Origin: [Collinsella] massiliensis
Lineage (GTDB): Bacteria > Actinomycetota > Coriobacteriia > Coriobacteriales > Coriobacteriaceae
Length of the DNA: 49,487 nt
Direction of reading: 5' to 3'
NCBI GenBank assembly: GCA_000333815.1
Contig: CAPI01000082.1
Span: 1-49,487 of the forward strand
Under the pieces are notes generated by a model. It was not told where the DNA came from. It was given only the letters and a program-made list of their open reading frames with translations, and ran no database searches. Below, piece by piece: positions 21,408 to 29,430 of the stretch. How positions within the stretch are numbered: position 1 is the first letter of the stretch; each line of letters starts with the position of its first letter. The translations under genes were made by a program, and so were the position numbers.

Positions 21408-24143
<2,736 letters not shown>

Positions 24144-24265: not shown

Positions 24266-24442
24266 GTTCATCCGGAGCGGCCGTCTGCACCACCCAGATA
24301 GGCCGGTTGTTATCAAACAGCGGTTGACGGTAGCGCAAGGACGCATCCCTGACCGGGGCTTTCGTACAATTATGTGCGGCTCTGTATCGGTTGCTGACGA
24401 TCCGCTTGGCGTATGCCGGCGGATGCCATGGTGGTTGCGTCT

Positions 24443-25363
24443 ATGAACATTCAACAACTTCGCTATTTCTGCTCCGTCATGAAGGCGGGCACGTTCTCGG
24501 CTGCGGCGCGCGAGGAGGGCGTGTCGGTCCAGGCCGTCTCGAAGGCGCTTGCCGCGCTCGAGGATGAGGTCGGACGGCCGCTCTTCCTCCGCAAGAACAA
24601 GGGTGTCATCGCCACCACCCAAGCGCATCGGTTCCAGGAGCGCGCCCAGCGGGCGGTCGTCGCGTTCGACGAGGCGGAGGCCTTCGTCCGCGCGAGCCGG
24701 GACGAGCTTCCCCGGGAGCGCGACGCGCTCAGCATCCTCATCGCCGTGCCGTCGTTCAACAACCATGTCGCCGTGTGCCGCGGGCTCGAGCGCTTCCTGT
24801 CCGGCAGGCTCGGCATGGCGGTGAGCGTGGGCATCTGCTCGGGCGCCGATGCCATCCCGCACCTGCTCTCGCATGAGCTCGACGTCCTCATCGCGGTGGG
24901 GGAGTACGAGGACGCGCGCTGCGACGCCACCGTGTTCGGCTCGCTTCCCACGGGCGCGTTCGTCACGGGCTCCCACCCGCTCGCCGTCCGCGGTTCCGTT
25001 ACACTCGCGGACCTCGCGCCGTACCCCGTGTGCCATGCGAGTGGCCTCGACGACTTCAACGAGACCATCCTCAACCGCTACCGCGCGCACGGCCTGGCTT
25101 CGCCGGTGCGCGTCGTGCGCTCCCAGGAGGCGTTCGAGCACCTCGTGCTCGAGGAGCGGGGCTATGCGTTCGGCGTGGGCATCCAGAGCCTTTCCGCGGT
25201 GCCCGACGGCAGGCTGCTGCGCATCGACGAGCCGGGTGCCCTGAGCGTGCCCGTGTGCGCCATCACCGCCCGCGATTTCAAGAGCGATCGCTACCGCGCC
25301 CTCGAGCGCTTCATGCTCAAAGAGTTCCCCCAGTTCATGGCCGCGTTCGCCGCCGGATCGTAG
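24443..25363 (+). CDS. LysR-family transcription regulator
   Basis: 306 residues in the usual LysR size range. The N-terminal winged helix is MNIQQLRYFCSVMKAGTFSA followed by REEGVSVQAVSKALAALEDE and the wing residues GRPLFLR. A linker helix leads to a two-lobe effector domain (LSILIAVPSFNNHVAVCRGL to the C-terminus). The frame also permits ATG at 24413 or 24428; I chose 24443 because it gives the canonical N-terminus, although the ribosome site (GGTGG) is weak. No divergent target gene adjoins it, and it converges on the Cache-MscS operon, so the target cannot be guessed. Confidence 0.92.
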   Translation: MNIQQLRYFCSVMKAGTFSAAAREEGVSVQAVSKALAALEDEVGRPLFLRKNKGVIATTQAHRFQERAQRAVVAFDEAEAFVRASRDELPRERDALSILIAVPSFNNHVAVCRGLERFLSGRLGMAVSVGICSGADAIPHLLSHELDVLIAVGEYEDARCDATVFGSLPTGAFVTGSHPLAVRGSVTLADLAPYPVCHASGLDDFNETILNRYRAHGLASPVRVVRSQEAFEHLVLEERGYAFGVGIQSLSAVPDGRLLRIDEPGALSVPVCAITARDFKSDRYRALERFMLKEFPQFMAAFAAGS

Positions 25364-25485: not shown

Positions 25486-28400
25486 TTAGCTCTGCTCTGT
25501 GCCCTCGAGCTTGTCGATGGACGCGCCCTGGCGCTCCACGAATTCGTCGGCCTGCTCGAGCTCCTCGACCTCGTTCGGGTCGTCGAGGATGTCCTGTGCG
25601 TCCTCGTGCGTGAACTGCTGCTGGTAGGGGGCGATGCCGTAGCGCGTGAGCATGAGGCGCATCTCGCGCTTGAGGTTGCGCTCGAGCGCGCCGCGGTTCC
25701 GCTCTGAGCAGCGCGCCATGATGCGCAGGGTCATCGTGGAACCCGTGAGCGCCACCACGCCGCGGTAGAACGGGCCGTCGAGCACCAGGGGCTGGCGCGC
25801 TGCGATGCTCGGCAGCTCGCGCTCGAGGATGGTCTCCAGATAGGGCAGGTCCTCGCCCACGGCGATGTCGACGTCGATGACGGCGAAGGAGTCGAGCTTC
25901 GTGCGGTTCACCACGTTCGAGATGGCGCTGTTGCGCAGCACGATGACGTTGTCGCTGCCGTCGTTGATCTTGGTGGTGCGGATGCCGATCTCCATGACGG
26001 TGCCCGTGTTGCCGCCCACCGAGATGGTGTCGCCCACGCGGAACTCGCCCTCGAAGATGATGAACAGACCGCAGAGCAGGTCGGTCACGAGGTCTTTCGC
26101 GCCGAAGCTGATGGCGAGCGTGAGCAGGCCCGCGCTCGCGAGGAGCGTCGCGGTGTCCACACCCACGGTGGCCAGGCACCAGTAGAGCGTGCCGAGGATC
26201 GCTCCGTACTTCGTGAGGCTCACGAGCAGGCGGCAGACGGTCTCGCCGCGGGCGGAGAGCACGGTCGAGAGCAGGTGGAGCAGCTTCTGGACGATCCAGG
26301 AGACGGTGAAGATCACGCAGGCGGTCATGATGCTCGCCGTGATGGCGAAGATGTTGAGCCCGCGCTCCCAGCCGCCGCCCAGGATGTAGCCGAAGACGGA
26401 GTCGCTGCCGAAGATCGCGTCGCGGAAGAGCACCGAGATGAACACCGCGAGCACCGCGAAGCCCATGAAGATGCGCAGGACGAAGGCGAGCTTCTGCTCG
26501 GGCGTCATCTCGTCCCAGTCGAACGAGCGGCTGAGCCAGCGGCTCGCGGCGGATTCGGTGCGCGCGCGGCGTCCCGAGGGGGTCTCGATGTCGAAGACGC
26601 GCCCGTCGGCGTCCTGCGCGGCGCCCGTGGCCTCGGGCGCGGCCGCGTCGATGGAGATGATGCAGAAGACGAGCGCCATGCAGACGGCGGCGATGCCCAC
26701 GGTCGCCAGGGTGAGCGGCAGGCGCTGCGCCATGAGCTCGCCCTCGGGGCCGGCGACGTAGACGTAGTAATCGTCCGTCTCGACCGAGGAGGCGTAGTAG
26801 GTCTCGCCGTTCACGGTGAGGTAGTCGTCGTAGCCGCCCTTGAGCTGGCCCTCGGCGAGGCCCACGGCGGTCGCGGCCTTCCCCTGCACCAAGGGGTCGG
26901 GGTAATACGCGATGGTGCCGTCCGCCTTGCTCACCGCGAAGGCGAAGCCGCCGGCGCCCGCCTGGACGCCATCGAGCACGCGGTCGATCTGCACGCTCTC
27001 AAGGAGCGTCTCGAGGCGGCTCGAGCGGATGCCGATCTGCACGAACCCGTCGACGAAGCCCGCCTCGTCATAGGTCGCGATGCCGATGTACTGGCGGAGC
27101 GCCCCCGTGGTGTCGTCCGGCATGGGCTCCTGGATGTACTCGTCCACGCCCTGCAGCAGCTGGCGGAAGGCGTAGGACTGGTCGTCGGGGTCCTCGGAAA
27201 GCGAGAAGTGCTCATAGGGCGCGTTGGATGCCACCATATCGCCGTTGAGGTCGAAGACGTAGACGTTCACGATCTGCAGCGCGTCGGCGAGCTCCTGCAG
27301 CTTCTGCTTCTCGGCGAGCGCCGGGTTCTGCTCGAGGATGTAGGCGGCCGCGCGCGCCTTCGAGAGGTAGCGCTCGTTGTACTGCTCGGTGAGGTCGTCG
27401 GCGCGCTCGTTCGTGCGCTCGATGGTCTCGGCGATGGAGGCCGCGCGATCCTTGTTGGCCACCGACTGGGAGGAGAGCGCGAAGAGCGTCTGCATGTAGA
27501 GGGAGACGATGACGATCGCGATGAGGCCGGTCAGGGCGAGCACCGCGGTGCGCCGCCCGATCGAGGCGTCGAAGCGCAGCCGCCGCGACGGCGCGGAGCT
27601 CCCCGCCGTGCCCGCGCCCCCGTGGCGCTCCCGGTCGCGCAGGACGAAGACGCCGTAGAGCGCGACGGTCGCCATGACGACGAAGAACACGAAGAGGATC
27701 ACGGCCACGGTGACCGTGCGCGCCGAGGCCATGTCGCTCGCCGGGATGGCGCAGATGTAGTAGGTGTCGCCGATGAGGCTCACGCGGCAGTAGAGCTCCT
27801 GGCCGTCGAGCGTCATCCAGGTCGTGGCGCCGTCCTCGAGGTCGGTGACGTCGATGCCCGCGTCGAGGGCGTCCGCGCCCACGAGCGCGGCGTCCGGGTG
27901 GTATTCGATGACGTAGGTCTGGGCGGAGAGCGCGAACACGTAGCCACCCTGGCCCACGGAGATGTTGCCGAGGACGCTCGCGAGCGACCCGGTGTCCTCC
28001 ACGAGCTCGCGGAGCTCGACGGGGCTCTGCTCGATCACGACCATGGTGTCGGCATCGAGGCGGGCGGCGTAGTAGCGCGCGAGCCAGTCCTCGTCGGGCA
28101 GCTCGATCTCCACGGCGCGCGAGGGCTCGCCGGTGGACAGGCATTCCCGCAGGTAGTTGAAGCGCGCATAGGAGAAGTCCGCGTGCGTCTCGGCGGCCTC
28201 GGCCACGATGGCGCCGTCGGCGTCCACGACCAGGATGTTGTCGACATCGAGGAGCTGCTGGTACTCGCGCATCTTGGCGTCGGTCGCCGCGAAGCCGGTG
28301 TCGTTGGCCGCCATGAACGCGACCGTCTGGGCCTTCGACTGGTAGATGGCGTCGAAGGTCTCCTTGTTCTGGGCGTTCTCCTCCTCGGCCGCGGCGAGGA

Positions 28401-28563
28401 CGGCCTCCAGCTGCGCCGCCTCCTCGTCCATCTCGGCGGTGTAGCTCGCGAGGGAGAGGCTCTGCTGCATCTGGGACAGGAGGATGCCCATCGCGACCAT
28501 GCTCGCCGCGACGACGGCGACGAGCAGGACGATCTTGCGCTTGAGCTTACGAGACATCTGCAT
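25486..28563 (-). CDS. Dual-Cache mechanosensitive-type (MscS) channel
   Basis: 1025 residues with two repeated sensor modules and a channel. Helix 1 (11-31), extracytoplasmic Cache-like domain 1 (about 35-283), helix 2 (284-309); helix 3 (339-360), Cache-like domain 2 (about 365-612), helix 4 (616-638); then an MscS part with helices near 693-713, 735-765 and 783-803, and the pore helix with FGAKDLVTDLLCGLFIIFEG at about 820-839. The beta domain (VGDTISVGGNTGTVMEIGIR) and a cytoplasmic vestibule follow. The two modules look duplicated (QSKAQTVAFM / LSKARAAAYI; ILVVDADGAIVA / VYVFDLNGDMVA). AGGAGG lies 5 nt before the ATG and overlaps the stop region of the upstream binding-protein gene. A channel gated by an external ligand is inferred. 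Confidence 0.9.
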   Translation of the reverse strand: MQMSRKLKRKIVLLVAVVAASMVAMGILLSQMQQSLSLASYTAEMDEEAAQLEAVLAAAEEENAQNKETFDAIYQSKAQTVAFMAANDTGFAATDAKMREYQQLLDVDNILVVDADGAIVAEAAETHADFSYARFNYLRECLSTGEPSRAVEIELPDEDWLARYYAARLDADTMVVIEQSPVELRELVEDTGSLASVLGNISVGQGGYVFALSAQTYVIEYHPDAALVGADALDAGIDVTDLEDGATTWMTLDGQELYCRVSLIGDTYYICAIPASDMASARTVTVAVILFVFFVVMATVALYGVFVLRDRERHGGAGTAGSSAPSRRLRFDASIGRRTAVLALTGLIAIVIVSLYMQTLFALSSQSVANKDRAASIAETIERTNERADDLTEQYNERYLSKARAAAYILEQNPALAEKQKLQELADALQIVNVYVFDLNGDMVASNAPYEHFSLSEDPDDQSYAFRQLLQGVDEYIQEPMPDDTTGALRQYIGIATYDEAGFVDGFVQIGIRSSRLETLLESVQIDRVLDGVQAGAGGFAFAVSKADGTIAYYPDPLVQGKAATAVGLAEGQLKGGYDDYLTVNGETYYASSVETDDYYVYVAGPEGELMAQRLPLTLATVGIAAVCMALVFCIISIDAAAPEATGAAQDADGRVFDIETPSGRRARTESAASRWLSRSFDWDEMTPEQKLAFVLRIFMGFAVLAVFISVLFRDAIFGSDSVFGYILGGGWERGLNIFAITASIMTACVIFTVSWIVQKLLHLLSTVLSARGETVCRLLVSLTKYGAILGTLYWCLATVGVDTATLLASAGLLTLAISFGAKDLVTDLLCGLFIIFEGEFRVGDTISVGGNTGTVMEIGIRTTKINDGSDNVIVLRNSAISNVVNRTKLDSFAVIDVDIAVGEDLPYLETILERELPSIAARQPLVLDGPFYRGVVALTGSTMTLRIMARCSERNRGALERNLKREMRLMLTRYGIAPYQQQFTHEDAQDILDDPNEVEELEQADEFVERQGASIDKLEGTEQS

Positions 28564-28572
28564 CGGCTCCTC

Positions 28573-29430
28573 CTAGTTCCATTTGTCGGTCAGGGCCTCG
28601 ACGGTGCCGTCGTCGAGCATCGCCTGCACGGCCTCGGCCACGGGCGCGGAGAGCGCGGAACCCTTCTGGGTGGCGATGCCGAACAACTGCTCGGCGACCT
28701 CGAAGCCCTCGATGATGGCGCGCTTGTCGTTCATGTAGGTCTTGGCGATGGCGCCGTCGAGCACCATCGCGTCCACGACGCCCTCCTCGAGCGCGTCGGA
28801 GAGCTCCTGGTAGCTCGGGAATTGCAGGAGGCGCCACGTATCGAACTGGACGTCGAGGTCCGCGCCTCCCAAGATCTTGTCCGTGCCCGCGCTGAAGCCG
28901 ATCTCCTGAAGCTTCGCGTTGAGCAGCGGGGCGGCGTTCGCGCCGGCCATGGTGCCGAAGGTGCGCCCGCGCATGTCCTCGATCGTGGTGATGAGGGACG
29001 AGTTCTGGACGACGGCGATGACGTGGTCGGTGTAGTAGGCGGGCGAGAAATCGAAGTTCTCGAGACGCGTGCTCGCGATGGAGTAGCACGCGGCGATGAG
29101 GTCGATCTCGCCGGATAGGAGCATCTCCTTGCGGTCGTCGGGCGTGACGGTCACGAACTCCACGTCGTCGTAGCCCACGCGCTCGGCAAGCTCGCGCACC
29201 AGGTCGATCTCGAGCCCGTAGTACTTGCCCGTCTCCTCGTTCAGATACCCGAAGCCCATGACGTCCGCGCGCACGCCGGCGCGGAGCGCCGTGCCCGTAT
29301 CGAGCGGCTTCGCGGGCGCGCTGCCCGATCCAGCCCGTGCGCCGCCCGCGCAACCGGAAAGCGCCGCCTGGATGGGAAGCAGCCCCGCGGCGAGCGCGAG
29401 CGCACCGAATGACCTCCTCGTGAGATTCAC
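28573..29430 (-). CDS. Amino-acid-type solute-binding lipoprotein
   Basis: Family 3 (SBP_bac_3) binding protein of 285 residues. The start is GTG at 29430 with GAGGAGG just upstream. The N-terminus TRRSFGALALAAGLL leads to a lipobox at Cys27 (ALSGC); the RR pair is Tat-like. The mature domain has LRAGVRADVMGFGYLNEETG, YGLEIDLVRELAERVG, LLSGEIDLIAACYSI and EEGVVDAMVLDGAIAKTYM, all typical. No permease or ATPase gene is near. The only partner, 9 bp downstream, is the dual-Cache MscS channel, so this protein may present a ligand to that channel instead of to an importer. Confidence 0.92.
   Translation of the reverse strand: MNLTRRSFGALALAAGLLPIQAALSGCAGGARAGSGSAPAKPLDTGTALRAGVRADVMGFGYLNEETGKYYGLEIDLVRELAERVGYDDVEFVTVTPDDRKEMLLSGEIDLIAACYSIASTRLENFDFSPAYYTDHVIAVVQNSSLITTIEDMRGRTFGTMAGANAAPLLNAKLQEIGFSAGTDKILGGADLDVQFDTWRLLQFPSYQELSDALEEGVVDAMVLDGAIAKTYMNDKRAIIEGFEVAEQLFGIATQKGSALSAPVAEAVQAMLDDGTVEALTDKWN

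Follow-up and report, generated by a model that had tools for sequence, protein, structure and literature searches.

The stretch of DNA considered here (the window) is 49,487 nucleotides of [Collinsella] massiliensis, and it carries on its minus strand two closely spaced genes. The upstream gene, at 28573..29430, specifies an amino-acid-type binding lipoprotein (SBP) of 285 residues belonging to the SBP_bac_3 family (PF00497, 88.6 bits for a cut-off of 26.4). Its reading frame opens with GTG and a lipoprotein signal peptide (29350..29430, minus strand), which comprises a twin-arginine-like TRRSF motif and the lipobox LSGC, with its cysteine at residue 27. After a gap of 9 bp comes the second gene (25486..28563, minus strand), recognised from its ORF, from Pfam and from AlphaFold models as a 1025-residue MscS channel with two external double-Cache (dCache) modules. 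An earlier note had described a lipoprotein followed, 9 bp further, by an MscS protein of this length, and ORF coordinates and Pfam matches agree with it. Convergent with the pair, a gene for a LysR-type regulator (Pfam HTH_1 and LysR_substrate) lies at 24413..25363 on the plus strand. At about 11 loci of Coriobacteriaceae, and in none of the other lineages, a relative is encoded immediately past the channel gene, on the strand opposite to it. For Coriobacteriaceae, and for them alone, it is a candidate regulator of the pair. A search for RNA elements gave no Rfam match between positions 24000 and 30500.

The nearest solved natural full-length relative of the SBP is PEB1a (2v25); 2pyy, which bears on the comparison with GluR0, is a weak relative. 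In the family alignment, SBP residues R100, R122 and D225 (28756..29133, minus strand) are the counterparts of R67, R89 and D174 of PEB1a, which we take to be its ligand-contacting residues. Each is invariant, in 77 of 77 family members, R122 and D225 being the arginine and aspartate that bind amino acids in SBP_bac_3 proteins. By itself this triad is insufficient to fix the ligand, and our best guess is an amino acid, perhaps an acidic one. The family also possesses invariant positions of its own, R54, Y71 and N165, at which importer SBPs differ. A lipobox-like cysteine is found in 56 of 76 homologues. The 20 that lack it all come from Clostridia and have a signal peptidase I signal instead. 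Outside a single-membrane cell such anchorless proteins would diffuse away unless docked, which suggests that they dock onto the channel.

The channel begins with two membrane-anchored modules. Module 1 (residues 1-315; 27619..28563, minus strand) is made of TM1, an extracytoplasmic dCache and TM2; module 2 (residues 338-645; 26629..27552, minus strand) repeats this plan with TM3, an extracytoplasmic dCache_1 and TM4. They are homologous (hhalign 99.9%, E 1e-35; BLASTP E 3e-13) and, judging from this resemblance, arose as a duplication within one chain. The Pfam match of module 2 to dCache_1, at residues 366-601, is marginal, with 45.5 bits for a cut-off of 45, and 44.7 for the fragment alone; the domain is found in 62 of 64 homologues of the module at E<0.01. 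For module 1 of this protein, a single-sequence search of Pfam gave no match above threshold, and a CHASE4 match below threshold at residues 79-143; its homologues match dCache_1 in 26 of 64 cases at E<0.01, with 4e-8 as the best value. When the modules were used in a profile search of PDB sequences, module 2 retrieved borderline chemoreceptor matches and module 1 nothing meaningful. The AF2 model of module 1 has a pLDDT of 88, and dCache sensor domains dominate its best 50 Foldseek matches in the PDB (probability 1.00, best E 7e-10). Its TM-scores against solved dCaches are modest, 0.3-0.4, so that the arrangement of its subdomains may differ from theirs. The ligand-binding domains of PscC, PctA and Mlp24 are the top fold matches of the modules. 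On profile-profile and fold comparison we reject the idea that module 1 is something other than a Cache, and in the predicted structures each module is a complete double-Cache domain. The earlier note had staked its reading on the external regions having Cache folds, and Cache folds are what AlphaFold and Foldseek return; its count of two Cache-like modules needs amending, as each is double, which places four PAS-like subdomains outside the cell. The full-length model, in which module 2 was also seen, is of moderate confidence (pLDDT 80, pTM 0.64) and, being that of a monomer, is uninformative on gating. The motif of amino-acid-binding domains of the PctA type, dCache_1AA, comprises Y121, R126, W128, Y129, Y144 and D173 (PMC10104139). 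A pattern search of 77 channels found the full motif in none of them and its R-x-W-Y core in one.

The pore occupies residues 660-1025 (25489..26586, minus strand), with an extra transmembrane segment, the MscS TM1-TM3, the beta domain and vestibule, and a cytoplasmic tail. Both MS_channel_2nd (PF00924, 53 bits, cut-off 20.2) and MS_channel_1st (PF21088, 30.5 bits, cut-off 23.1) are matched. The two hallmarks of the MscS superfamily, the beta domain and the TM3 pore helix, are present, and they align without gaps with those of TtMscS (3udc, 3t9n; E 1e-29 by sequence, 4e-13 by fold), so that by sequence and by model this is a pore of the TtMscS type. TtMscS itself, however, has neither extracytoplasmic sensor modules nor an SBP. 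Ligand control of MscS-type pores has a precedent in bCNG channels, the cyclic-nucleotide-gated members of the superfamily, but these use a cytoplasmic cyclic-nucleotide domain, and Pfam finds none in the present channel. Cache-less relatives of the pore often adjoin single-pass proteins with Ig/FN3/FctA-like repeats, a neighbourhood which suggests mechanical tethers for this pore clade.

How general is this association? Among the named loci with room to show an SBP, 78 out of 79 have one upstream of the channel, and the sole unpaired locus displays a decayed channel and has lost its SBP. The survey of neighbourhoods for conserved pairing which the earlier note had proposed thus upholds it. 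The pair extends over Coriobacteriia, Bifidobacterium and Clostridia (Actinomycetota and Bacillota), with intergenic gaps mostly of 2-19 nt. No other gene is conserved beside it, the commonest neighbour being present at no more than 12 of 80 loci, and a search of plasmids gave no full-length match. Conservation in two phyla, with unrelated flanking genes, rules out chance adjacency. No SBP is found at 15 ordinary MscS loci, nor next to those relatives within this pore clade that have no Cache modules. The SBP therefore goes with the Cache modules rather than with the pore, and the idea that it follows MscS pores generally is discarded. SBP and channel trees are mostly, if incompletely, congruent, 22 of the 31 well-supported SBP splits being compatible. 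Distances in the SBP correlate with those in module 2 (r 0.87), module 1 (r 0.84) and the pore (r 0.79); they lean towards the external modules, but shared ancestry confounds these values too much for them to carry weight. Conservation of an operon establishes functional linkage, which is not proof of contact.

The earlier note had seen no ABC permease or ATPase with the lipoprotein, rightly so: by a search for permease motifs and an inspection of neighbours, neither in the window nor in its relatives does an importer permease adjoin the pair, and the permease and ATPase set that polar amino-acid ABC importers have with their SBP is not encoded there either. The typed ABC genes that adjoin some pairs are of the ABC-2 or exporter kinds, with ABC exporters downstream of the pair in a few Clostridia and Eggerthellaceae. 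An importer operon is rejected on these grounds.

A close parallel is LuxP-LuxQ, the AI-2 receptor of Vibrio, where a soluble binding protein signals to a two-PAS, dCache-like extracytoplasmic domain and the two genes are adjacent. Here too a binding protein and a dCache-like receptor are specified by adjacent genes, the likeness being known from the genes, and this arrangement is the one kept at the 78 loci. In LuxQ, by contrast, the output is a histidine kinase where we find an MscS pore, LuxP belongs to another SBP family, and our channel has two dCache modules per chain. Action of ligand-loaded SBPs on chemoreceptors, sensor kinases and diguanylate cyclases is an accepted mechanism (PMC9602780), which the present pair would resemble in that a loaded SBP stimulates a transmembrane receptor; that work names no channel among such receptors. 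The 'ion channel' class of dCache_1 refers to the alpha2-delta subunits of animal Ca2+ channels (PMC4822843, Table 1). These also tie a Cache domain to channel function, but as auxiliary subunits of a voltage-gated channel and not by covalent fusion to an MscS pore. GluR0 and the ionotropic glutamate receptors likewise place an ion channel under an SBP-type amino-acid sensor; in those receptors SBP fold and K+-channel-like pore are joined in one protein, whereas here a separate SBP goes with MscS. Our search of the literature, with subscription journals mostly outside its reach, found no published combination of Cache with an MscS or mechanosensitive channel, or of SBP with MscS.

That the SBP tracks the Cache modules, that some SBPs are anchorless and that the Cache domains have no amino-acid motif is best explained if the lipoprotein relays a signal to these modules. 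The reading that we favour, and hold to be reasonably probable, makes the pair a single device: a LuxPQ-like, SBP-relayed, Cache-gated MscS channel answering an amino acid, perhaps an acidic one. The sequence of events that we infer would be as follows. The SBP would capture an extracellular amino acid (acidic as the best guess) and close. The closed form would dock onto the outer dCache modules, most likely module 1. The docked protein, rather than a ligand lodged in a Cache pocket, would shift the long stalk and transmembrane helices, as in LuxP-LuxQ. This would alter the tension threshold or the open probability of a C-terminal, presumably heptameric, MscS pore, and ions or osmolytes would cross the membrane upon appearance or disappearance of the nutrient. 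The earlier note had the lipoprotein presenting its ligand to the Cache domains: the dedicated pairing stands, but hand-over of the ligand is less likely than contact between SBP and Cache. For a multi-part ligand-gated channel, whose MscS pore opens or closes when an amino acid caught outside by the SBP acts on it through the dCache tandem, we see the chances as evenly balanced.

Other readings have to be weighed. Since dCache domains usually bind small ligands, and since both modules are well conserved among homologues, gating might rest on direct sensing of the ligand by the Cache modules, with the SBP as a separate sensor or buffer that makes no contact with the channel. This we find unlikely: all 77 channels are without the published amino-acid motif by pattern, the near-invariant 2-19 nt pairing and the anchorless SBPs fit contact better, and in one divergent, SBP-less variant module 1 is devoid of its membrane-distal subdomain. 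Nor do we give much credence to an SBP feeding an amino-acid ABC importer encoded elsewhere, with the channel as an osmotic valve that would, for example, balance the accumulated amino acid. The SBP does come from an importer family, and a GlnP-type importer encoded in this genome comes with an SBP of its own, 33% identical to that of the pair; yet this importer is thereby already provided for, in none of the lineages does an importer adjoin the pair, the SBP disappeared where one channel decayed, and the invariants R54, Y71 and N165 set the family apart from importer SBPs. The tether-like neighbours of the Cache-less pores would accord with an SBP acting as an inhibitory plug or tether, which keeps the channel shut or couples it to wall or membrane, ligand binding having become vestigial or no more than regulatory. 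A mere plug, however, would not require the triad kept throughout the family, and we consider this very improbable.

Bacteria sense nutrients outside the cell mainly through Cache domains and binding proteins, and as outputs the surveys consulted list kinases, chemoreceptors, cyclases, phosphatases and transcription factors. If an SBP-relayed, Cache-gated channel is indeed what the pair forms, MscS-type channels would be chemically controllable from the outside, and the two proteins would make a compact, reconstitutable system for testing ligand gating of an MscS pore. Gut Actinomycetota and Clostridia would then possess a bacterial equivalent, in function, of the glutamate receptors, its parts differently arranged. 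The carriers are common gut genera, Collinsella, Enorma, Olsenella, Gordonibacter and Eggerthella, together with members of the Lachnospiraceae and Oscillospiraceae, and they may read the free amino acids of the gut via this pair.

An SBP_bac_3 lipoprotein of 285 residues (28573-29430, minus strand; the SBP below) is the product of the first gene of a pair, the second of which, 9 bases 3' of it, codes for a membrane channel of 1025 residues (25486-28563, minus strand). This anatomy, described in the earlier note, is confirmed by the open reading frames and by Pfam. The host genome (2.33 Mb, 135 contigs) has Enorma and Collinsella, of the Coriobacteriaceae, as its closest named relatives. The pair is flanked divergently by an ORF of 605 residues (start 29588, plus strand) that, judging by eye from its sequence, we take to be a formate-tetrahydrofolate ligase, and convergently by a LysR gene (24413-25363, plus strand), found in that position in Coriobacteriaceae only. 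Its product could be the regulator of the pair or a mere neighbour.

The conserved pairing that the earlier note wished to see checked by a neighbourhood survey is borne out. Among Coriobacteriaceae, the SBP lies directly upstream in 20/20 loci with this channel, two broken channel genes included, and in 0/15 ordinary MscS loci retrieved by the same query. From 85,000 species genomes, scanning yielded 80 named loci, down to about 40% full-length identity, in Coriobacteriaceae, Atopobiaceae, Eggerthellaceae, Bifidobacterium panos, Lachnospiraceae and Oscillospiraceae. The SBP is upstream of the channel in 78 of them; one of the other two (L049) starts at a contig end, and the last (L113) has a broken channel adjoined by an unrelated gene, with no SBP remaining. 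Between the SBP stop and the channel start there are 2-19 nt in most loci, the few outliers stemming partly from start codons chosen in the analysis. Neighbour clustering of the 80 loci found no further gene shared by over 12, leaving aside ORFs antisense to the pair. The system is patchy (58/398 Coriobacteriia species by the module-1 profile, nearly all with the full architecture). SBP and channel trees have 33/71 splits in common, and 22/31 well-supported SBP splits are compatible with well-supported channel splits, so that the two were mostly inherited, and moved, together. In two loci (L025 in genome G058, L026 in G040) the channel gene carries frameshifts or a stop, the adjoining SBP gene still being there. 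Directly 3' of the channel, L081 and L085 have an FHA-ABC ATPase and ABC-2 membrane protein pair (Pfam), and L094 an ABC-ATPase ORF of similar size, recognized by motif only.

The channel ends in an MscS pore (residues 660-1025), where PF00924 and PF21088 both score over the Pfam cut-off. TtMscS (3udc, 3t9n) matches it with E 1e-29 by sequence and 4e-13 by fold, aligning without gaps across the pore helix and beta domain. The topology derived from hydropathy and model combined is N-in with eight TM helices, MscS TM2 being visible in the structure model and missing from the hydropathy list. The two acidic external regions (about 255 and 262 residues) repeat a single TM-dCache-TM unit (BLASTP 26% identity, E 3e-13; profile-profile probability 99.9%, E 1e-35, the match extending into the TM helices). 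Structure prediction upheld their Cache-like nature: in a full-chain AlphaFold model (64-sequence alignment, pLDDT 79.7, pTM 0.64), each module has a long N-terminal helix followed by membrane-distal and membrane-proximal PAS-like subdomains, the double Cache fold. Module 1 modelled alone (pLDDT 88) has as top PDB matches the ligand-binding domains of PscC, PctA, Mlp24, Tlp3 and similar sensors (E 7e-10, TM-scores modest). Among homologues, Pfam dCache_1 recognizes the second module in 62/64 and the first in 26/64. In an Eggerthellaceae genome, a dCache module of this kind is joined to an apparent GGDEF (diguanylate cyclase) domain (L186:3721-5172), and the channel modules may have come from such a protein.

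The nearest full-length relative of the SBP among natural proteins of known structure is PEB1a, the aspartate/glutamate-binding protein of Campylobacter; AncQR, an ancestral reconstruction, scores slightly above it. R100, R122 and D225 of the SBP, each invariant in 77/77 members, align with the PEB1a ligand residues R67, R89 and D174. R54, Y71 and N165 are family-specific positions of the channel-linked SBP. A pattern search of the channels for the amino-acid motif described for dCache domains (PMC10104139) did not find it. Since the SBP residues are invariant and the Cache motif is absent, sequence comparison suggests that recognition is done by the SBP, not by the Cache pocket. An importer SBP paralogue elsewhere in the genome (33% identity) has its own two permeases.

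In 20/76 SBPs, all from Clostridia, the lipobox cysteine is missing, its place taken by an AxA site for signal peptidase I. Because a cell with a single membrane could not retain a free SBP on its outside, such a protein likely has a membrane partner; alternatively, an uncleaved signal peptide could anchor it. Coriobacteriaceae SBP signal peptides (29350-29430 here) carry a twin-arginine-like TRRxF motif, and those of Eggerthellaceae and Clostridia look Sec-type. The closest Cache-less pore relatives, small MscS proteins of Clostridia (about 345 residues; full-length profile E down to 1e-99), have no SBP of this family at their loci, so that it is the Cache modules with which the SBP goes. A divergent Atopobiaceae locus (L185, 2184-5141) has no adjoining SBP, and its module 1 lacks the membrane-distal subdomain, a single case hinting that this distal part is the docking site; there, an in-frame stop separates module 1 from module 2 and the pore, so that the gene may be decaying or mis-assembled. 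The Clostridia Cache-less pores often lie just 3' of a gene whose single-pass product carries Ig/FN3/FctA-like repeats outside the cell (6-7 of 10 loci with a recovered pore ORF: L175, L176, L177, L182, L183, L184 and L179; L174, also among the ten, has no room), and the kind of external partner may vary within this pore clade. Two other Cache-less pores (L180, L181) adjoin what looks to be a spoIVA-like gene, a hint of a link with sporulation.

The best reading of the pair is a relay resembling LuxP-LuxQ, the Vibrio AI-2 receptor, in which a binding protein signals to a dCache-like receptor; here the output would be a channel. The SBP would bind its ligand and, once loaded, dock on a dCache module, and the resulting movement would travel via the TM helices to the MscS pore. 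More speculatively, thanks to their tandem duplication the two modules in a chain could pair with one another, and dimeric Cache domains could then be reconciled with a pore presumed to be seven-fold. Known Cache outputs comprise kinases, chemoreceptors, c-di-GMP enzymes, cyclases, phosphatases, Ser/Thr kinases and transcription factors. A survey of these domains (PMC4822843) has a single ion-channel class, VWA_N/VGCC_alpha2, which belongs to Ca2+ channel subunits. Binding proteins are reported to stimulate chemoreceptors, kinases and cyclases, in a paper that names no channel (PMC9602780), and our literature search turned up no account of Cache fused to MscS or of an SBP paired with an MscS channel. 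The components are individually known and their arrangement appears new, in a pair that is small, conserved and open to direct testing.
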